This document shows positions 734 through 53,905 of a DNA stretch of 64,000 nt, one piece after another; positions within the stretch are counted from its first letter, which is position 1; each line of letters opens with the position of its first letter. The position numbers and the translations under genes are program-made. Under the pieces are notes generated by a model. That model was not told the DNA's origin. It was given only the letters and a program-made list of their open reading frames with translations, and searched no databases. Source of the stretch: Parasphingopyxis sp. (GTDB lineage Bacteria; Pseudomonadota; Alphaproteobacteria; Sphingomonadales; Sphingomonadaceae); the NCBI RefSeq assembly GCF_028279465.1, contig NZ_JANQNS010000015.1:62001-126000 (forward strand), written 5' to 3'.

Positions 734-2331
734 GCGCGCCGGTTCTCGACAGCGCCGTCGACACGAACGGCGAGGCTTTTCGCGCCAATGCCGCGCATAA
801 CCGCGAACTGGTCGAGGCGTTGCGTGCCGATGTCGCGAAGGCGGCGCTTGGCGGGACGGAGAAACATCGCGAGCGGCATCTGTCGCGCGGCAAACTGCTG
901 CCGCGGGATCGCGTCGAGCGGCTGCTCGATCCGGGTTCGCCGTTCCTCGAAATCGGCCAGCTCGCCGCCTGCGATATGTATGGCGGCGAGGTGCCGGGCG
1001 CCGGGATGATCGCGGGCATCGGGCGTGTCTCCGGCCGCCAGTGCATGATCGTCTGCAACGATGCGACGGTGAAGGGCGGTACCTATTACCCCATGACGGT
1101 CAAGAAGCATCTGCGCGCGCAGGAGATCGCGCAGGAGAACCGGTTGCCCTGCATCTATCTCGTCGATAGCGGCGGCGCGAACCTGCCGCATCAGGCCGAG
1201 GTCTTCCCGGATCGCGAACATTTCGGGCGTATCTTCTTCAACCAGGCGAATATGTCGGCGCTCGGCATCCCGCAGATCGCCTGCGTCATGGGGAGCTGCA
1301 CGGCGGGCGGGGCGTACGTCCCGGCGATGTCCGACGAGACGGTGATCGTCCGCAACCAGGGCACGATCTTCCTCGCCGGGCCGCCGCTCGTCAAAGCGGC
1401 GACGGGCGAGGAGATCAGTGCCGAGGATCTGGGCGGCGGCGATCTGCATGGCCGCAAGTCCGGCGTTGTCGATCATGTCGCCGAGAATGACGAACATGCG
1501 CTGACCATCGTCCGCGATATCGTCTCGACGCTGAACGTGCCGCACGATCCGGGCGTCAAACGCGTCGAACCGCGCGCGCCGAAGTTCGACGCCGAAGAGC
1601 TGTACGGCATCATCCCGGACGATGTCCGCGCGCCCTATGACGTGCATGAGATCATCGCGCGGATCGTCGATGGCAGCGAGTTTCACGAGTTCAAGGCGCT
1701 GTACGGATCGACGCTGGTCTGCGGCTTTGCGCATATCTGGGGCATGCCGGTCGCGATCCTCGCCAATAACGGCGTGCTGTTCAGCGAGAGTGCGCAGAAG
1801 GGCGCACATTTTATCGAGCTCGCCTGCCAGCGCCGCATCCCGCTGCTGTTTTTGCAGAATATCTCGGGCTTCATGGTCGGTGGGAAATATGAGGCCGAGG
1901 GGATCGCCAAGCATGGCGCGAAGCTGGTGACGGCGGTCGCGACGGCGACCGTGCCCAAGATCACCGTGCTGATCGGCGGCAGCTTCGGCGCCGGCAATTA
2001 CGGCATGGCGGGGCGGGCATACGGCCCGCGCTTCCTGTTCACCTGGCCCAACAGTAGGATTAGCGTGATGGGCGGCGAACAGGCGGCGAGCGTGCTGGCG
2101 ACCGTCCACCGCGACGCCGACCAATGGACCGAGGACGAAGCCGAAGCCTTCAAGGTCCCGATCCGGCAAAAGTACGAGGATGAAGGCAACCCCTGGCACG
2201 CCACCGCACGCCTCTGGGACGACGGCATCATCGATCCGGCGCAGACGCGCGATGTGCTGGGGTTGGCGTTTGCCGCGACGCTGGAAGCGGAGATACCCGA
2301 GCGGCCGGCGTTCGGCGTGTTCAGGATGTGA
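730..2331 (+). CDS. mccB: Methylcrotonyl-CoA carboxylase, carboxyltransferase (beta) subunit
   Basis: A 533-residue carboxyltransferase, the usual length for the MCC beta subunit. It transfers CO2 from carboxybiotin to 3-methylcrotonyl-CoA in leucine degradation, in a complex with the biotin-carrying alpha subunit (mccA, 3061). The crotonase-fold halves are clear: [12 protein letters not shown] (about residue 136) and [16 protein letters not shown] in the first half, and [18 protein letters not shown] followed by [16 protein letters not shown] in the second. The phrase [20 protein letters not shown] is typical of MCC rather than of propionyl-CoA carboxylase; compare pccB at 17826. The ATG overlaps the upstream TGA and is preceded by AGGAGGGG. 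An unrelated AT-rich gene separates it from mccA, which is unusual. Confidence 0.95.
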
Positions 2332-3061: not shown

Positions 3062-4992
3062 TGATCTCCTCCCTCCTCATAGCCAATCGCGGCGAGATCG
3101 CGTGCCGGATCATCCGCACCGCGCGCAGGCTCGGCATCCGCACCGTTGCCGTCTATTCCGATGCCGACGCCAAGGCGCTGCATGTGCGCGAGGCGGATGA
3201 GGCCGTGCATATCGGGCCGTCGCCGGCCGCTGAGAGCTATCTGGTCGGCGAGAAGATTATCGCGGCTGCCAAAGATAGTGCTGCCGAGGCGATCCATCCG
3301 GGCTATGGGTTTCTCTCCGAGAATGCGGATTTCGCGCAGGCGGTGATCGACGCGGGTCTGATCTGGGTCGGGCCGAAGCCGGAGAGTATCCGCGCCATGG
3401 GCCTCAAGGATGCGGCGAAGAAGCTGATGGACGAGGCGGGCGTGCCGACGACGCCCGGCTATCTTGGCGAGAAGCAGGATGTCGATTTTCTCGCCGAACA
3501 GGCAGAGCAGATCGGCTATCCGGTGTTGATCAAGGCGGTCGCGGGCGGCGGCGGCAAGGGGATGCGCAAGGTCGAGACGGCCGAGGATTTCTCGGACGCG
3601 CTGCAATCCTGCCGCCGCGAGGCCAAGGCCGCGTTCGGCAACGATATCGTGCTCCTGGAAAAATGGATCGAGAGCCCGCGCCATATCGAGGTGCAGGTCT
3701 TTGGCGATAGCCACGGCAATGTCGTCCATCTGTTCGAGCGCGATTGCTCGCTCCAGCGCCGCCATCAGAAAGTGATCGAGGAAGCCCCCGCGCCGGGCAT
3801 GGATGCGGAAACGCGCGAAGAGGTCTGCGCCGCCGCCGTCCGCGCCGCCAAGGCGGTCGATTATGAGGGCGCCGGCACGATCGAATTTATCGCCGATGCG
3901 TCCGAAGGCCTGCGCGCCGATCGTATCTGGTTCATGGAAATGAACACGCGGCTGCAGGTCGAGCATCCGGTGACCGAGGAGATTACCGGGCAGGACTTGG
4001 TCGAATGGCAGCTGCGCGTAGCGAGCGGCGAGAAGCTGCCGAAGACGCAGGACGAACTCAGCATAGATGGCTGGGCGATGGAAGCGCGGCTCTATGCGGA
4101 GGACCCGGCGAGCGGTTTTCTCCCGAGTACGGGACGTCTCGAATTTCTGTCGTTTATTGACGAAAAGCCGGGCGTGTTTCGCGTCGAAACCGGAGTGGAG
4201 CAGGGCGACAGCGTCTCGCCATTTTACGACCCGATGATTGCAAAGCTGGTCGCCCGCGCGCCGACCCGCGAAGATGCGATTGGCGATCTGCAGGTCATGG
4301 TTCGCAACAGCAATATCTGGCCGGTGAAAACCAATGCCGGCTTCCTGTACCGCTGCCTTGAAAGTGAGAGCTTTCGGGCCGGCGACATAACGACGGCGTT
4401 TATCGCCGAGGCAGGAGATAGCCTGATTCCGCCGGCGGAACCCGCCGACGCCGTGTGGGCGGCCGCCGCGCTGCGCTTTCAGGACGAGATCGAGGGGTCT
4501 GCCCAGAAGGACGGCACGGGTGCGAACGGCCCTTGGGTGGCGGGCTCCGGCTTTCGCCTGAATGGTGCGCCGCGCCGCGAAATGGCGATCAGTTCGGGCG
4601 GCGAAAGCCGAGTCTTGCCATTCGACGAGCGCGGGGATGAAGCCGATGGATGGCTGTATCATGCGGCGCGGATGGATCACGGCGATGCCTGGCTGGTGGT
4701 GGATCGGGGACAGCCCTATCGATTTGTAATGGCGCGCAGCGAGGGTGCTGCCGCCGGGGCTGCCTCAGACGGCGCGATCCTCTCGCCCATGCCGGGCAAG
4801 ATCATCGCGGTCAGCGTTGCCGCGGGTGATACGGTGGCCAAGGGCGACAAGCTCGTCACGCTCGAGGCGATGAAGATGGAGCACAGCCTGACCGCGCCGT
4901 TCGATGGGACGGTCGCGGAGCTTAACGCCGAAACCGGCGGGCAGGTCTCCGAAGGCACGCTGCTCGTGCAGATTGAGGCGGGGGAGGAATAG
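3061..4992 (+). CDS. mccA: Methylcrotonyl-CoA carboxylase, biotin carboxylase/BCCP (alpha) subunit
   Basis: A 643-residue biotin-dependent carboxylase subunit that carboxylates biotin using ATP and bicarbonate and hands CO2 to MccB. The N-terminal biotin carboxylase domain begins with LIANRGEIACRIIRTARRLG. The ATP-grasp glycine loop KAVAGGGGKGMRKV is near residue 160, and EMNTRLQVEHPVTEEITG follows near 297. The C-terminal BCCP domain carries the biotinylation site EAMKMEH with the acceptor lysine at residue 605. Pairing with mccB, one gene away, identifies it as the methylcrotonyl enzyme. A second full alpha subunit (pccA) lies at 26970. The ATG overlaps the stop of the AT-rich upstream gene by one base. 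Confidence 0.93.
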   Translation: MISSLLIANRGEIACRIIRTARRLGIRTVAVYSDADAKALHVREADEAVHIGPSPAAESYLVGEKIIAAAKDSAAEAIHPGYGFLSENADFAQAVIDAGLIWVGPKPESIRAMGLKDAAKKLMDEAGVPTTPGYLGEKQDVDFLAEQAEQIGYPVLIKAVAGGGGKGMRKVETAEDFSDALQSCRREAKAAFGNDIVLLEKWIESPRHIEVQVFGDSHGNVVHLFERDCSLQRRHQKVIEEAPAPGMDAETREEVCAAAVRAAKAVDYEGAGTIEFIADASEGLRADRIWFMEMNTRLQVEHPVTEEITGQDLVEWQLRVASGEKLPKTQDELSIDGWAMEARLYAEDPASGFLPSTGRLEFLSFIDEKPGVFRVETGVEQGDSVSPFYDPMIAKLVARAPTREDAIGDLQVMVRNSNIWPVKTNAGFLYRCLESESFRAGDITTAFIAEAGDSLIPPAEPADAVWAAAALRFQDEIEGSAQKDGTGANGPWVAGSGFRLNGAPRREMAISSGGESRVLPFDERGDEADGWLYHAARMDHGDAWLVVDRGQPYRFVMARSEGAAAGAASDGAILSPMPGKIIAVSVAAGDTVAKGDKLVTLEAMKMEHSLTAPFDGTVAELNAETGGQVSEGTLLVQIEAGEE

Positions 4993-14208: not shown

Positions 14209-15023
14209 TGCAGAGCGGTCGCGATTATGTGCGGATCGGCGATCCGGACCTGCCCAAGCTCATTTGCGTGCATGGATTCGGCGATGATCTGAGCGCCTTC
14301 GACGCTCTCGGTCGATCGCAGTTGACCGACATGTTCGAGCTTGTGCTCTTAAACCTACCCGGCTTCGGCGGTGCGCCTGCGCCTCTGGAACCCGCCTCCC
14401 TCGACAGTTTCGCGCAGTTTATTCTCGACGTTGCCGATATGGTTTCGCCCGATCGTCCTGTCGTTCTGCTGGCGCATTCGGTTGCGTCCGTTATAGCGAC
14501 GAAAGCGGCGACAGAGCGCCCGGACCGTATCGCCGCACTTATCTCGATTGAGGGTAATCTGACCGCGCCCGATGCCTATTTTTCAGCGCTTGCTGCATGC
14601 TATGATACTGCTCCGGAATTTCTGGCAGGGCTGCTGGCAAAGATCGCGGAATTGGACGCGTCGACCGCACGACCGAGTCGCTATGCGCAAGCCGTCCGCC
14701 GGGCCGACAGTCAGGTGATGTTTGATCTCGGACGGGATGTGGCGTCCCGGAACATTGGCGACAGTTTCGGTGAATCTTTCCTGCAGCTGCAGGATGACGG
14801 CGTGGCATCATTCTATTTTTGGGGGCGGCACAACAGCCCGCCTGAGACAGCGGCATTTGTCGATCGGGCGGCCACGGCCGGAAAACTGCATCACAGGGAG
14901 TTTTTCGAGTCCGGGCATTGGAAATTTGCCGATGCGCCAGCCGAAACGGCGCAGGTGATAATGGAGTTTTGCGCGTCGCTGCCTGGGTCGGAGCTAACGG
15001 CACATCCTTACAAAGAGGTATGA
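14208..15023 (+). CDS. Alpha/beta hydrolase
   Basis: A 271-residue alpha/beta-hydrolase. The ATG overlaps the upstream TGA (TGATG); a GTG one codon earlier is the alternative. The oxyanion loop is CVHGFGD (about residue 20), the nucleophile is S91 in AHSVAS (a variant of G-x-S-x-G lacking the usual glycines), and FESGHWKFADAP near the C-terminus supplies the histidine. The HSVAS elbow and the GHWxF ending resemble C-C hydrolase and esterase relatives, but no substrate can be assigned. Coupling to the acyl-CoA dehydrogenase gene could mean thioesterase or ester hydrolysis in the same route; that is a guess. Confidence 0.82.
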   Translation: MQSGRDYVRIGDPDLPKLICVHGFGDDLSAFDALGRSQLTDMFELVLLNLPGFGGAPAPLEPASLDSFAQFILDVADMVSPDRPVVLLAHSVASVIATKAATERPDRIAALISIEGNLTAPDAYFSALAACYDTAPEFLAGLLAKIAELDASTARPSRYAQAVRRADSQVMFDLGRDVASRNIGDSFGESFLQLQDDGVASFYFWGRHNSPPETAAFVDRAATAGKLHHREFFESGHWKFADAPAETAQVIMEFCASLPGSELTAHPYKEV

Positions 15024-15034
15024 AATAAAGAGTC

Positions 15035-15817
15035 ATGACTTACGAAACCATCCTCACCGAACAGCGCGGCGCTGTCACGTTGATCACGCTCAACCGGCCA
15101 AAGGCGCTCAATGCGCTCAACAGCCATGTGCTCGATGAACTGGTAGATGCCTTTGCGGCGTTCGAGGCCGATGACGGGCAGCGCTGCGCTGTCCTTACCG
15201 GCTCCGGGTACAAAGCGTTCGCGGCAGGCGCGGACATCAAGGAGATGTACGACAAGGCGGCCGCCGATTTCTATCTGGAGGATTTCTTTGCGAAGTGGAC
15301 GAGCGATCTCGTCAAGAAAACGCGCAAGCCCTGGATCGCGGCGGTCAACGGGTTCGCGCTGGGCGGCGGGTGCGAACTGGCGATGATGGCCGATTTCATC
15401 ATCGCATCGGATAAGGCGAAGTTCGGCCAGCCCGAGATCAATCTCGGCGTCGCGCCCGGCATGGGCGGCTCGCAGCGACTAACCCGCGCAATCGGCAAGG
15501 CGAAGGCGATGGAAATGTGCCTGACCGGCCGGATGATGGATGCCGAGGAAGCCGAGCGTTCGGGCCTCGTCGCGCGCGTCGTACCGCATGACGATCTGCT
15601 CGACGAAACACTCAAAACGGCGGAAAAGATCGCCTCGCAAGCGCCGATGGCCGCGATGGTGAACAAGGAGATGGTCAACGCGGCTTTCGAGACAACGCTC
15701 GATCAGGGCGTAGTGCACGAGCGCCGGCTTTTCCAGATTCTGACCGCGACCGAAGACAAGACCGAAGGCATGGGCGCGTTCATCGACAAGCGCGATGCGG
15801 ACTGGAAGGGACGGTAA
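15035..15817 (+). CDS. Enoyl-CoA hydratase
   Basis: A 260-residue crotonase of standard length with both catalytic glutamates. They lie in [15 protein letters not shown] and in [15 protein letters not shown], and the oxyanion segment is [13 protein letters not shown]. It matches short-chain enoyl-CoA hydratase (crotonase proper), which adds water across trans-2-enoyl-CoA. Between the isobutyryl-CoA dehydrogenase-like gene and mmsB it would hydrate methacrylyl-CoA in valine degradation. The next step, the CoA-releasing hydrolase, is probably the gene at 30940. Confidence 0.93.
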
Positions 15818-48354: not shown

Positions 48355-48700
48355 ATTTTTGCCAATCTCGACGCGCGTCAGCCGGTTCAGCGCGTCATAA
48401 TAATAGGTGGAGCCGTCATAGCCGGTGAGATTGCCGCGCCCGCCATAGCTGGGCGTGCCTACGCTATGCCAACTAATGCAATGTCACCATAAACCGTAAA
48501 CTTAGGCGGCCGACCGGTCCTGTCCACCGTCGCCTGTGTCAACCGTTTCAGGCTGTCACAGGCGGTGACGTTGCCGCGCGCATCATACAGCGGCTACAGC
48601 GAGTCCGGAGCCGGCGGATTGAGGGTCGCGCATTTATCGAGAGCCAGGAAACCGATAAGAGAGTTCGTTGCGTCTGAACTCCATTGCGTTGTTGTCGTAA
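48355..48700 (-). pseudogene. Decayed Rhs fragments downstream of the Rhs locus
   Basis: On the minus strand 48457-48363 encodes TPSYGGRGNLTGYDGSTYYY and DALNRLTRVEI, matching 50458-50364 inside the intact Rhs gene at about 89 of 95 bases. A second piece, about 48593-48480, reads PLYDARGNVTACDSLKRLTQ and so on, another YD-like repeat, and is continuous with an upstream frame (ATLNPPAPDSL) except for a TAG at 48594-48596. Frames are broken between pieces. These look like leftovers of an older Rhs core displaced by the present tip and immunity gene. The 411-base gap 48340-48750 contains nothing else I can support. Confidence 0.75.
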
Positions 48701-48750: not shown

Positions 48751-49176
48751 TCATATACCCAGAATTTTCGCAAACTTATCATCCACAAAATTTCGGAATA
48801 TGGCAGGCATTAGCGGAGAAAAAATAATTGCAGCAAATATATTCAGCTGGAACATAAGGCCTATAAATGTAAAGACTGGCAAACCTATCAGTATTATGCT
48901 GGGAGCATAAATAGAGTAATCAGTTCTTTCTTTGAAAATCTCTATTTTTCCTTTTCTTATATATGTAAATGGATGATAATTATGCGGGAAAAACTCAAAT
49001 TTTTTTCTGTTAAATATTATGATCTTCTTTTCGTCAAAATCTTCTATTGATAAATTATAGTAATCAGATAGAGTTTCTTGTATATTTATAATATCTAAAT
49101 CGGTATTGTCCTGTTTAGAAGTTCTATCTACCCAGCCCAAGAAAAAACGAAATATTGTTATAATCCAACTATTCAT
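48751..49176 (-). CDS. AT-rich two-helix membrane protein, candidate immunity protein for the Rhs tip
   Basis: A 141-residue protein in the most AT-rich stretch of the window. The ATG directly follows the Rhs TAA, and the sequence GGGAGGA that encodes the last Rhs residues serves as its ribosome-binding site. The N-terminal half is hydrophilic and rich in D, I, K and N (DNTDLDIINIQETLSDYYNL). Two hydrophobic helices follow at about residues 90-109 and 111-128 (YAPSIILIGLPVFTFIGLMF and on). Position, composition and size match immunity genes beside polymorphic toxins, and membrane immunity proteins often guard against pore-forming or envelope-acting toxins. The function is inferred from context only; no family is recognised. 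Confidence 0.75.
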   Translation of the reverse strand: MNSWIITIFRFFLGWVDRTSKQDNTDLDIINIQETLSDYYNLSIEDFDEKKIIIFNRKKFEFFPHNYHPFTYIRKGKIEIFKERTDYSIYAPSIILIGLPVFTFIGLMFQLNIFAAIIFSPLMPAIFRNFVDDKFAKILGI

Positions 49177-52100
49177 TTATCCTCCCGGGCAAAAATATGG
49201 GCCTAGTTTTGTTACCGTAGTCTGTCGCGAAACGCCAATGGGAAAACCAAAACTCGGCCCAGCCGAGCTTGAGGTTGGTGGTGAAAAGAATCCGCTGTCA
49301 GGTTGTTGATTTATTGTAACGGAAGCAGGTCCGGCTGAAATCGAGGTTGTACGAGCAGCGCCTACAAAATCTCTAATACTATCTGCTCCACCCTGCTCAA
49401 CAGACACTCCGACGTCGCCGAAGCCGCCTCCAAGACCTCTAGTTGTAAAAACACCGAACGCACCAAGGTCAGTTCTAAAGAGTCCGACAGTGCTGGTGCC
49501 ACCGGCTCCCATCACACTTGTCACTGTCACAGATGCGGTATGCACTCGACCCAAGAGACATGGACGATCCAGCTCACTAGAGAAATTATGCGTTACAGCA
49601 CCTCCCCGACCACCGCTCGATCCACCAGAGAGTTGTGGAGCCGTCACCACAATTTCCGGATACAGAAATCCAATGTCTTGTACGACACTTCCAAGCAGAT
49701 CGGTAAAGAAGCTATCCAGAGCAAATTCCTGCGCTGCCAAAGATGCCCTGCAAAAATAGGGGTCGATTTGGCACCCGCCCTGCACAACGATAGTGTCCCC
49801 ATAAAATGCAATAGTCGCGGGATCGAACCGTTCGAAGAGTCCCAACGGATCGACCCTATTCACCGGATCGTTTCCGACATAGGCGTAGAGGTTCATGCCG
49901 CCCTGGTATCCGATCGGGTCGGGCTGGACGAACCGGCCGAGTTCGGGGTGATAGAAGCGGTTGCGCATATAGTAGAGGCCGATATCCGCGAGCCACATCT
50001 GGCCGGCATATTGGAACACGCCGGCATTGCCCGCGCCCGGCTCGCCATGGGGGCCATAGGTGTTGATGCTCTCCATCGTGCCGTCCGTCGCATTGGCGAT
50101 GGCGATCACGCTGCCGCGCTCGTCGCGGTGCAGATAGCGGCGGTCGGCGATGGCCGTGCCCGGGCCCTCGATCGTCAGCATCGGCGCGCCCAATGAACCG
50201 GGCACATAGGCATAGCGGCGCAGCACATCGGTGCTCGTATCGGCATGTTCGGAGATGATCACATCGCCATCCCACAGGAAGCGCCGGTCATCCGCCGTGC
50301 CGGGCGCGTCGATCCGGTAGAGCCGCCCGAGCGGATCATAGGTAAAGCGGGTGTTCTGCCCGTCAATCTCGACGCGGACCAGCCGGTTCAGCGCGTCATA
50401 ATAATAGGTGGAACCGTCATAGCCGGTGAGATTGCCGCGCCCGTCATAGCTCGGCGTGATCGCGCCCGAACCCGGCGGAGTAACGCTCGTATATTGGTTG
50501 AGGCCGTTGTCCGCATAGCTGGTCGTGCCCGGCGTCTGGCCGTCATAGACATAGGCGCTGTTCGTGCGGCTGCGCGTCGCGATCTGGCCGGGCGGATTAT
50601 AGGTGAAATCCGTGGTGAGATCGTTGGCCGCGCCGCCGGTCAGTTCCTGGAACACACTGCTGACCCGCGATACGGGGTCATAGCTGTTCTGCTGCACGGT
50701 GTGGTTCGGCGTCGTATTGTCGCCCCAGACGCGGCGAAACAGCCGTTGTTCGACATCGTAGACGGACGCGAATACCCGCGATGCCGTCCCGCTTGTCGCG
50801 TTGATCCGCGTCGCGGCGGGGGCGCCTGTGTTCCAATATTGGGTGAAGAAATAGGTGTTGTCCGGATGGGTCAGCCGCGTCCGCACGCCATCGTCGCGAT
50901 AGGCGGACTGCACCGTGCCCAGCGGCCCGGTCTCCGTCAGCTGGCGACCGAGCGCGTCATAGGTGAAGGTCAGGTTGTGACCGGTTTGCGATGCCGATGT
51001 CAGCCGCGAGAAATTATCATAGGCGTAGGTGACATCCGGTGCGGCGCCTGGCGGGTCCATGAGCGTCCGGCGGTTGAGATTGTCATAGGCAAAATTAATT
51101 GCTGCGCCTGTGCGTGGCCGGAAAGATTCCAGGTTGGAATTGGCGTCATAGGTATAGGTCTCCCGGTCGGTGATCGATGAACCGCCGCCGGTGGCGTTAG
51201 GATACCGTGTCTGTATCAGCCGGTCATGGCCGTCATATACATATGTCGTGCGATTATCTTCGCCATCCTCGACAAAGCGGACCGTGCCGTTGGGATTGAA
51301 ACGCATATCGAAGGTTGCGCGCTGATCAGGCGTGTTGATGGCCTCGATACGCGCATAGAGCCGATTGTCGGCGAGATAATAGTTGCGCGATATGCGGTCG
51401 GGCCCGAAACTTCCCACAGTGCCGATCGTGCAGGCATTGGTCGGCCCACCGCCCGCGAAAAATGCCGGGTTCATGCGCACGGCCGTGCACAGGGGCTGGC
51501 TTTGCTCGTTATAGTTATAATCGGTCCTGGACGTGACGACATTGTCCGATCCGCGCAGGCGCGCGCGGACGCGCCGGCCGATATCGTCATATTCGAACAG
51601 CCGGGTCGTCGAGACATTCAGCGTGTTGAGATCAGTAAGCGTGGCGCCGTCCGTCCAGCCGCTAATCTCTTCGGTGACATTGCCATTATCGTCATAGACA
51701 AAGCGTTGCGCACGCCGCTCGATATCCGTGCCCGTGCTCGGGTCCATGCCGATCACGCCACGTAGCTGGATCCCGGCATTGTAGAAATAATAGGTTTCGT
51801 CGTCGGGGATCGGGCCATCATGGATGGTGAGATTGCCGAACGGATCGTAGGTGTAGCTGTTCGTTGCCGAAACAGAAGCGTCGCCGGCTTGCGTGGTAAC
51901 CTGGGCGAGCAACAGGTTTGTCGCAGTGCTGCCGTTGTCATAGCTCAGGATCGTTTCGGTTTCATCGTCGGTTCCGTCGCATGTCGAGCCAGTCGCACAG
52001 CTTTCGGCACGCGTCAGCCGCCAGACATCGCTCGGTGCATCGATTGGTGAGCCGCCTGAGGACTGGATATAGCGCGCGGTCTGTTCTTCATAGCTATAGC

Positions 52101-53562
52101 GCGTCTGCGGACTCACCTGAGGGCCGCCACCGTCCGGATCGGGCAGCGTGACGCTCAACAAGCCGCCATGCGTAGCGCTCCAGTTATAATTGGTGACATT
52201 GCCCTCGGCGTCGGTAGTTGTAGCAGGCCGGTTGCAGGTGACGCTGCTCGTGCAAGGATAGGTTGCGGAGGTTTCGATTGTATCCGTGCCGGATTTCGGG
52301 CGACGAATGACGGTCGTGATATTGCCGTTGCTGTCATAGCTGTACTCGACCGAATTGCCCTCCGGCATTGTCATCTCTGTCATTCGTCCGAAGCTGTCAT
52401 ACTCGTAGGTCGTTTCATTGCCTGCGCCGTCGGTCACGGATGTGGGGCGCAAACTTTGCGGTGGGTCGAATTCGACCACAACGTCGCCGCCTACAGGCGC
52501 ATCGATAGTGGTTTGAAGGAGGGTTCCACCCGGAAACGCATAGCTGTAGTTCCAGACACCTGCGCCGTCGTCGACCGACGATACGCGACCATCGATCCCA
52601 TAGCTGATATCTATCGGTTCATCGCCAGCCTCCGGCCGTTCGACCCGTGTAACCCTGAGCGCGCTGTTACGGGTTACGCGCGTCGTGCGGCTCAGATTAT
52701 CGGTTGCGGTTATGATGGTCGGCGCACTGACATCATTGTAGGTAAATGTAACGCTTGGCCAGTTTTGCGTCAGGCTGCAGCTGTCTGCCAGTGGATCGCA
52801 ATACTCCTCGGCATTGTTGATCGCGATTACGCCAGTGACGAGGTTGAATCGGTCGAGCGTAGTGACACCGGTAATGAAGTCGGACAGATAATCGATATGG
52901 AGTTGATAGCCGAGATTGTTAGTGATCGACTGAACACGGTCAGCGCGAACAAGCACGACCTGTCCTTCATAGTCGATGACGTCTTGCTCGGTCTTGTAGT
53001 GGAATGTCGTGACGATACCTGATGGCTCACTGATTTCCGTCACCCGGGCGATGATATCTTCTTCCGGATAGTCAGCGTTTAGCGACGTATCGAATTCATA
53101 GGCTGTGCCATTCGTCTGCGCATAGGTGTAGATACCGCTCCCGCCATTGAAGGCCAGTGTCGATCCTGTGCCTTCCTGCGCAGTAAACACGCCAGCGGTT
53201 TCGGTGAACGATTCGGAAGTATTGCCGAAGGTCACATAGTAGGTGGTACCCGTGCTATCGGTTATGCGCTGTATCCAGCCAAGTGTAAGATCGCGGCGCG
53301 CTGTACCATAGAATTCCATCGCGAAGCCCAGCGCCTCACCGACCGATCCGCCTGTGGAAATTTGGCCGAACGTAAAGTTGAACTCGCCGTTAGACAGGTT
53401 GACGCCGTTCGTATCGATTGTCTGATAAGGTTCGGGAGGGTTCGCTGGATTACTTGGCGGTCCAGACTGTGAAACAGCCGGCGCGGCCAGGCCAAAGCTC
53501 AGGATCGTGGTCAGGAGGAATTTGGCGGCGCGGCGGCGGGTATTGGTTTTCGGTGCGGTCAT
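49177..53562 (-). CDS. Sec-exported Rhs-repeat protein with novel C-terminal tip
   Basis: A 1461-residue Rhs/YD-repeat protein. A signal peptide (residues about 15-31, SFGLAAPAVSQ) shows Sec export rather than a PAAR/VgrG-type start. Residues about 50-1180 are many YD repeats (YEYDSFGRMTEM, FAYDNLNRRTLM, YYYDALNRLVRVEI), expected to form the hollow beta cocoon. The core ends with YYMRNRFYHPELGRFVQPDP, then NLYAYVGNDPVNRVDPLGL at about residue 1240, the conserved autocleavage region. The last about 220 residues are unlike any tip I recognise: C-x8-C near the start (GGCQIDPYFC), a glycine-rich stretch (SGGSSGGRGGAVTH), many short beta-like segments (GGGFGDVGVSVEQGG) and the end YFCPGG. The tip is presumably the effector. 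Confidence 0.93.
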   Translation of the reverse strand: MTAPKTNTRRRAAKFLLTTILSFGLAAPAVSQSGPPSNPANPPEPYQTIDTNGVNLSNGEFNFTFGQISTGGSVGEALGFAMEFYGTARRDLTLGWIQRITDSTGTTYYVTFGNTSESFTETAGVFTAQEGTGSTLAFNGGSGIYTYAQTNGTAYEFDTSLNADYPEEDIIARVTEISEPSGIVTTFHYKTEQDVIDYEGQVVLVRADRVQSITNNLGYQLHIDYLSDFITGVTTLDRFNLVTGVIAINNAEEYCDPLADSCSLTQNWPSVTFTYNDVSAPTIITATDNLSRTTRVTRNSALRVTRVERPEAGDEPIDISYGIDGRVSSVDDGAGVWNYSYAFPGGTLLQTTIDAPVGGDVVVEFDPPQSLRPTSVTDGAGNETTYEYDSFGRMTEMTMPEGNSVEYSYDSNGNITTVIRRPKSGTDTIETSATYPCTSSVTCNRPATTTDAEGNVTNYNWSATHGGLLSVTLPDPDGGGPQVSPQTRYSYEEQTARYIQSSGGSPIDAPSDVWRLTRAESCATGSTCDGTDDETETILSYDNGSTATNLLLAQVTTQAGDASVSATNSYTYDPFGNLTIHDGPIPDDETYYFYNAGIQLRGVIGMDPSTGTDIERRAQRFVYDDNGNVTEEISGWTDGATLTDLNTLNVSTTRLFEYDDIGRRVRARLRGSDNVVTSRTDYNYNEQSQPLCTAVRMNPAFFAGGGPTNACTIGTVGSFGPDRISRNYYLADNRLYARIEAINTPDQRATFDMRFNPNGTVRFVEDGEDNRTTYVYDGHDRLIQTRYPNATGGGSSITDRETYTYDANSNLESFRPRTGAAINFAYDNLNRRTLMDPPGAAPDVTYAYDNFSRLTSASQTGHNLTFTYDALGRQLTETGPLGTVQSAYRDDGVRTRLTHPDNTYFFTQYWNTGAPAATRINATSGTASRVFASVYDVEQRLFRRVWGDNTTPNHTVQQNSYDPVSRVSSVFQELTGGAANDLTTDFTYNPPGQIATRSRTNSAYVYDGQTPGTTSYADNGLNQYTSVTPPGSGAITPSYDGRGNLTGYDGSTYYYDALNRLVRVEIDGQNTRFTYDPLGRLYRIDAPGTADDRRFLWDGDVIISEHADTSTDVLRRYAYVPGSLGAPMLTIEGPGTAIADRRYLHRDERGSVIAIANATDGTMESINTYGPHGEPGAGNAGVFQYAGQMWLADIGLYYMRNRFYHPELGRFVQPDPIGYQGGMNLYAYVGNDPVNRVDPLGLFERFDPATIAFYGDTIVVQGGCQIDPYFCRASLAAQEFALDSFFTDLLGSVVQDIGFLYPEIVVTAPQLSGGSSGGRGGAVTHNFSSELDRPCLLGRVHTASVTVTSVMGAGGTSTVGLFRTDLGAFGVFTTRGLGGGFGDVGVSVEQGGADSIRDFVGAARTTSISAGPASVTINQQPDSGFFSPPTSSSAGPSFGFPIGVSRQTTVTKLGPYFCPGG

Positions 53563-53614: not shown

Positions 53615-53905
53615 TTAGTCGGGCTGGGCCGCTTGTCCGGGCTGCGCAGTGCTCAAGGGTTCGGGAGGTACCGCCGCTGATGAGGTCGTTTCGGTGACAC
53701 CCGCCGATGTCCGGTTGTCGGCAGCGTCATAAGAAAATTCGAAATCGACCGTTTCGGTTGAACGATCCGATTCAACTTCGATGACACGCCCGAGCGCGTC
53801 ATAGGTGAATGTAGCAGTTTCGGCCTGCATGGCGTTTGCGGCTGCGCTTTGGGTGGCCAAAGCCGCCGAGGCGAGAATGGCTGAAACGATGTGGCGATTG
53901 GTCAT
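53615..53905 (-). CDS. Small exported protein with a single YD repeat (mini-Rhs)
   Basis: A 96-residue protein upstream of the large Rhs gene in the same direction, 52 bases apart. It has a signal peptide (IVSAILASAALATQSAAANA). One complete YD repeat follows (TFTYDALGRVIEVESDRSTE, then FEFSYDAADNRTS), and the tail is rich in P, Q, A and S (PPEPLSTAQPGQAAQPD). It is too short to form a cocoon. It might cap, chaperone or nucleate the large Rhs shell, or be a remnant of a longer gene. The intact signal and start argue for a functional gene. Confidence 0.75.
   Translation of the reverse strand: MTNRHIVSAILASAALATQSAAANAMQAETATFTYDALGRVIEVESDRSTETVDFEFSYDAADNRTSAGVTETTSSAAVPPEPLSTAQPGQAAQPD

Follow-up and report, generated by a model that had tools for sequence, protein, structure and literature searches.

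Rhs proteins undergo self-cleavage after the end of the core, which is marked by a sequence such as DPLGL. The Rhs locus of Salmonella Typhimurium LT2, in which orphan Rhs tips and the immunity genes specific to them have been tested experimentally, is described as a full-length Rhs gene with a downstream core fragment and tip, each followed by its own small immunity gene, and exchange is made possible by ≈0.5 kb of common core (522 bp, 95%) (PMC3967940). Cassette exchange of this type is presented as general for polymorphic toxins, and two-helix CdiI immunity proteins are tabulated in the same source (PMC3482391). Several described systems pair a toxin with protectors at the membrane. The CDI ionophore toxins combine a toxin tip with a hydrophobic, membrane-localized immunity protein, and their CdiI proteins are ≈30% identical within a group and diverge faster than the toxins (PMC11630599). 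The bacterial teneurin-like protein BiTLP has a YD shell and a polymorphic C-terminal toxin; its C-terminal domain is reported to block growth only with a signal peptide, membrane damage was assayed by propidium uptake, and by analogy it may serve as a precedent for a membrane-acting tip (PMC13018210). We also count as a precedent the EsxX system, a membrane-acting toxin with the membrane protectors ExiCD and ExiAB (PMC12744356).

The window analyzed here, a 64,000-nucleotide stretch of DNA from Parasphingopyxis sp., contains an Rhs gene that is followed by a small gene on the same strand. Judged from the sequence, this small gene probably provides the cognate immunity to the toxin tip on the adjoining Rhs protein, a reading to which we assign a probability of about 0.82. 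The locus resembles that of LT2 in its arrangement, and the shared core described below is the counterpart of the 522-bp stretch. Unlike the LT2 locus, however, its Rhs protein carries what appears by eye to be a Sec-type signal peptide, no VipB was found in its genome, and its tip and immunity protein match no family searched. It shares with the CDI ionophores the hydrophobic membrane protein behind a toxin tip and the fast divergence of that protein, but the CDI ionophore domains are predicted five-helix bundles carried by CdiA rather than Rhs (PMC11630599), whereas the window tip is Gly/Ser/Thr-rich and beta-looking by composition; neither the tip nor the immunity protein gave a meaningful Pfam or NCBIfam match that would place them in the CDI ionophore or membrane CdiI families. 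BiTLP differs from the window Rhs protein in carrier architecture, and its likeness rests on description. The likeness to EsxX, which unlike the window Rhs protein is a T7SS substrate of Staphylococcus, likewise rests on description (PMC12744356). Overall, the locus encodes a known kind of toxin-immunity pair whose tip and protector match no catalogued family, and the literature searched on Rhs and polymorphic toxins in Sphingomonas and Sphingomonadaceae yielded no description of this system.

The Rhs carrier and its variable tip

The carrier is a Rhs/YD-repeat protein of 1461 residues encoded at 49177–53562 of the reverse strand. Its RHS/YD repeats match Pfam PF05593 (E 2.2e-27), and the RHS repeat-associated core domain (TIGR03696, E 5.5e-23; 49837–50052, reverse strand) ends at DPLGL and matches, by sequence, Rhs effectors of solved structure as well as related YD proteins. 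The N-terminus, judged by eye, looks like a Sec signal peptide. The two features expected of a T6SS PAAR-Rhs effector, a PAAR domain and a T6SS in the genome, were not found here: the Pfam search of the 1461-residue protein returned no PAAR domain, and VipB, which encodes the T6SS sheath, did not turn up in the genome of the window in a search for which the E. coli control gave a match.

The variable tip of 219 residues (49177–49836, reverse strand) begins after the DPLGL core end. It has no meaningful match in Pfam or NCBIfam (best PF17750 at E 0.0094, its 16.2 bits falling short of the 25-bit cut-off), a PDB profile search returned weak matches only (best E 0.35), and a structure model built from the single window sequence was unusable (pLDDT 39). 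Within the tip, a Gly/Ser/Thr-rich, toxin-like domain (49189–49560, reverse strand) is flanked by two cysteines 123 residues apart.

A decayed orphan remnant of an Rhs core, corresponding to core residues 1020–1074 and lying in two frames with a stop, is located at 48355–48644 of the reverse strand, downstream of the small gene, and its presence there indicates that modules have been exchanged at this locus. At the other end, a small secreted ORF with a single YD repeat (53615–53905, reverse strand) adjoins the Rhs 5′ end. This ORF has matches in genomes G002, G003, G005, G009, and G027, some of which share a contig with nearby Rhs core matches, at times in divergent orientation, and a role as an accessory gene conserved at these Rhs loci is possible.

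The small gene and its junction with the Rhs gene

The putative immunity gene occupies 48751–49176 of the reverse strand, starts with ATG, and encodes 141 residues; the coordinates, strand, start, and AT-richness given in an earlier note on this DNA were all correct. At 29.6%, its GC content is the lowest that a scan of 426-nt stretches, moved in steps of 10, found in the window (mean 61.5%, SD 4.5%), and its GC content by codon position is 34/28/28% for positions 1/2/3 versus 57/51/66% in the Rhs gene. The product, which has no Pfam or NCBIfam family, consists of a soluble N-terminal part with the motif NYHPFTYIR followed by a C-terminal hydrophobic block. Kyte-Doolittle analysis predicts membrane-spanning hydrophobic segments of the kind expected of a membrane-embedded immunity protein, at residues 87–131 in the window protein and at 94–148 and 87–143 in its two homologs from the congener G005. 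The earlier note had described two membrane helices. Residues 87–131 are long enough for two, but they form a single block, and an AlphaFold2 single-sequence model draws residues 90–139 as one helix (pLDDT 58; reliable in the C-terminal helix only, most of the model being unusable). Because hydropathy gives one block and AlphaFold2 one helix, the two helices are an inference.

The junction of the two genes reads ...TTTTGCCCGGGAGGATAAATG..., in which the ATG abuts the Rhs TAA with zero gap and in the identical frame. A ribosome-binding-like GGGAGGA, read from the sequence at 49180–49186 of the reverse strand, lies inside the terminal Rhs codons, its GGAGGA constituting the two last Gly codons of Rhs, so that both the missing gap and the origin of this site in the final Rhs codons, as claimed previously, are visible in the junction itself. 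The in-frame zero gap is not conserved in the two G005 relatives, one of which has a 4-nt gap and the other an overlap, and a read-through fusion by way of the in-frame TAA/ATG junction was rejected for this reason. Across the 111 family modules described below, the commonest spacings between tip and downstream gene are −4 (23 modules) and −1 (16 modules), with zero in 2.

Core, tip, and downstream gene in G005 and across the family

In G005, three orphan modules lie behind a full Rhs gene and its small gene, and each of them combines a core fragment with a tip and small gene of its own. Core protein identity across the four modules is 89–94%, whereas the tips differ. At the DNA level, the shared core extends over 663, 605, and 475 nt (88, 89, and 93% identity) and stops at nt 3885–3887 of the full gene, no more than 2 nt from the core/tip junction at 3885; beyond it lie different tips and different small genes. 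Tip and gene thus form an interchangeable cassette behind a constant core. The window and G005 loci together display the hallmarks of Rhs modules: an RHS-associated core running to DPxGL and then a variable tip, orphan or displaced fragments nearby (the window core remnant and the three G005 orphan modules), and, by position and replacement in G005 and in the 111 modules, a small gene that sits directly behind the tip and is replaced with it.

The G005 array lies at L004:9739-14205 (reverse strand) and downstream, and comprises, besides the four modules, one further short core fragment. Its last module has an insertion between core and tip that is transposase-like by eye. The array is flanked by small secreted proteins that resemble one another and carry a "CRGP" motif behind the signal peptide, also recognized by eye (L004:1682-2128, reverse strand; 868-1488, forward strand; and 14648-15049, reverse strand).

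Relatives of the window gene are few and occupy the same context. When the immunity protein alone was used as the query against 60 related genomes, it retrieved, besides itself, two places, both in G005 (E 2.6e-6 and 8.2e-4) and both directly behind Rhs tips with 38% and 40% identity to the window tip. Identity to the window protein is 29% and 24% for the two gene products, which are similar to it in length, and NYHPF is common to all three. We then built immunity and tip profiles from these three places. Against 397 family genomes, the immunity profile found just the same three places, and the tip profile gave strong matches there and nothing else better than E 0.002; because the profiles derive from these places, the result speaks to absence elsewhere and not to independent co-occurrence, for which the 60-genome search is the independent test. 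Family-level tip matches at E 0.002–0.01 were dropped as weak, as were doubtful order-level immunity matches with in-frame stops in G424 and G475 (E 0.004 and 0.008; 396 genomes). Genome and viral contig collections contained no detectable relatives of the tip or the immunity protein, and a plasmid collection searched with the immunity protein contained none either. More distant relatives of the tip occur in module 17 (E 1.7e-8) and, marginally, in module 3 (E 0.09; z 7.3 to the window tip), and the genes downstream of these, a single-anchor protein in module 17 and a lipoprotein in module 3, are unrelated to the window gene.

The Rhs core segment is present in 94 of the 397 Sphingomonadaceae genomes, with 91 loci yielding 126 distinct modules, 118 of them with an ORF; 111 were kept after leaving out modules with a tip shorter than 120 residues or without a downstream ORF. 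In these 111, GC content averages 58.6% for the core segment, 52.4% for the tip, and 41.2% for the downstream gene, which is less GC-rich than the core in 108 modules; the window gene is within the ten most AT-rich. AT-rich, tightly coupled downstream genes are therefore the rule in this family, and the layout in the window follows it. The cores of 400 random pairs are ≈64% identical on average, whereas the tips are mostly unrelated, with BLAST matching only 45 tip pairs among the 126 modules at an E-value of 1e-3 or below.

The earlier note had gone further, proposing that the gene is kept in strict step with its toxin. Among homologous tip pairs (at least 90 residues, both genes present), the downstream genes were related at z > 4 in 3 of 26, compared with ≈1% of 300 random pairs; the three scored 13.9 (the window pair), 7.6, and 111, and a Mann-Whitney test over the whole distribution gave p = 0.06. 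The downstream ORF was picked automatically here, and sometimes wrongly. With all candidate ORFs allowed to compete, z exceeded 4 in 4 of 27 pairs versus 6 of 250 random ones (Fisher p = 0.01; Mann-Whitney p = 0.09). Related tips and genes are thus clearly inherited together in the window/G005 pair, whereas overall the signal is weak, and since related tips often stand before unrelated downstream genes, the notion of strict step applies to the close pair, which does move together, but does not extend to homologous tips in general. The faster divergence of immunity proteins than of toxins seen among the CDI ionophores (PMC11630599) may, by analogy, explain part of this weakness.

Site of action and alternative readings

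Good support for the assignment as cognate immunity gene comes from its position, from the two homologs behind related G005 tips, and from the way tip and gene change behind a constant core. Following known Rhs biology, the Rhs shell would be exported by Sec and would cleave itself after DPLGL, freeing the tip into a neighboring cell, and translational coupling would ensure that the protector is made along with the toxin. The Gly-rich, disulfide-capable tip may then hit the inner membrane of the target, either as an ionophore or pore or through damage from the periplasmic side, and the immunity protein, held by its hydrophobic hairpin, could neutralize it there; for these last two steps we put the odds at about even.

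That estimate draws on the precedents above (PMC11630599, PMC12744356, and PMC13018210) and on a correlation within the family. The charged residues in the invariant columns of the three related tips, which are limited to Asp and Glu, also speak for a membrane site. The window tip has a C-terminal cysteine pair, defined here as a second Cys within 14 residues of the tip end and a spacing of 90–160 residues, and in the 111 modules a downstream membrane gene, meaning one with a membrane segment beyond the N-terminus, accompanies 27 of 51 tips with such a pair versus 11 of 60 other tips (Fisher p = 2.5e-4); collapsing related tips leaves 78 clusters and gives p = 0.02 or p = 0.0004, according to which representative is taken. 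These p-values are exploratory because the rule was chosen after inspecting the tips and a hydropathy threshold decided what counted as a membrane segment. The remaining 24 of the 51 lack such a membrane gene, and lipoprotein genes show no link to the pair (12 of 51 versus 13 of 60). Disulfides have been described as important for some CdiA entry domains (PMC9424206). The correlation lends the membrane-acting tip predicted in the earlier note weak support and leaves it plausible.

A different target would be compatible with the same gene assignment. The tip could be an enzyme that attacks peptidoglycan, lipid, or envelope proteins in the periplasm, in which case the protector would need its membrane anchor only for positioning, as in lipoprotein immunities. 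The lipoprotein and single-anchor genes behind the distant tip relatives in modules 3 and 17 suggest a periplasm-facing target, and the conserved cysteine pair suits an oxidizing compartment. The tip family, however, has few invariant polar residues: in the three related sequences Gly, Ser, and Thr columns are invariant, Asp141 and Glu147 are the sole invariant charged residues, no His, Lys, or Arg is invariant, and the window tip shows no catalytic signature. We consider an enzymatic tip of this kind rather unlikely.

Readings that detach the gene from its tip fare worse. The decayed core fragment just downstream and the existence of orphan immunity genes elsewhere (PMC12744356) could indicate that the gene is the leftover of an older, displaced module and protects against another tip, but both G005 relatives sit behind tips related to that of the window and the spacing to Rhs is zero, which makes this very improbable. 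It is similarly hard to regard the gene as an ordinary AT-rich hypothetical gene or a spurious ORF unconnected to the tip: the missing family match and the very restricted distribution would fit, yet NYHPF is conserved in three homologs of similar length, all in the same context, and AT-rich coupled downstream genes are usual in the 111 modules. Finally, with no secretion apparatus identified and no VipB found in this genome, the Rhs protein might be imagined as an adhesin or a shell whose antigenic ends vary, with a partner or chaperone encoded by the small gene. We give this idea very little credence because orphan tip-and-gene arrays are a hallmark of Rhs toxin-immunity loci, and such loci have been tested in Salmonella (PMC3967940).

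The pairing of a putative toxin with its candidate immunity gene offers a concrete, testable system in which neither partner matches a catalogued family, located inside a family-wide reservoir of Rhs modules. A cysteine pair at the tip C-terminus together with a downstream membrane protein provides a simple sequence rule with which to guess envelope-acting tips among uncharacterized ones, and the locus leads one to ask by what route Rhs proteins exported through Sec leave the cell without a T6SS. As a tentative extension that we judge somewhat improbable as a whole, Sphingomonadaceae may possess a large T6SS-independent arsenal of Sec-exported Rhs proteins in which a terminal cysteine pair marks inner-membrane tips with integral-membrane protectors, and the window pair would then be the first described member of a new Gly-rich, disulfide-stapled, beta-type membrane toxin with an NYHPF-motif hairpin immunity protein.
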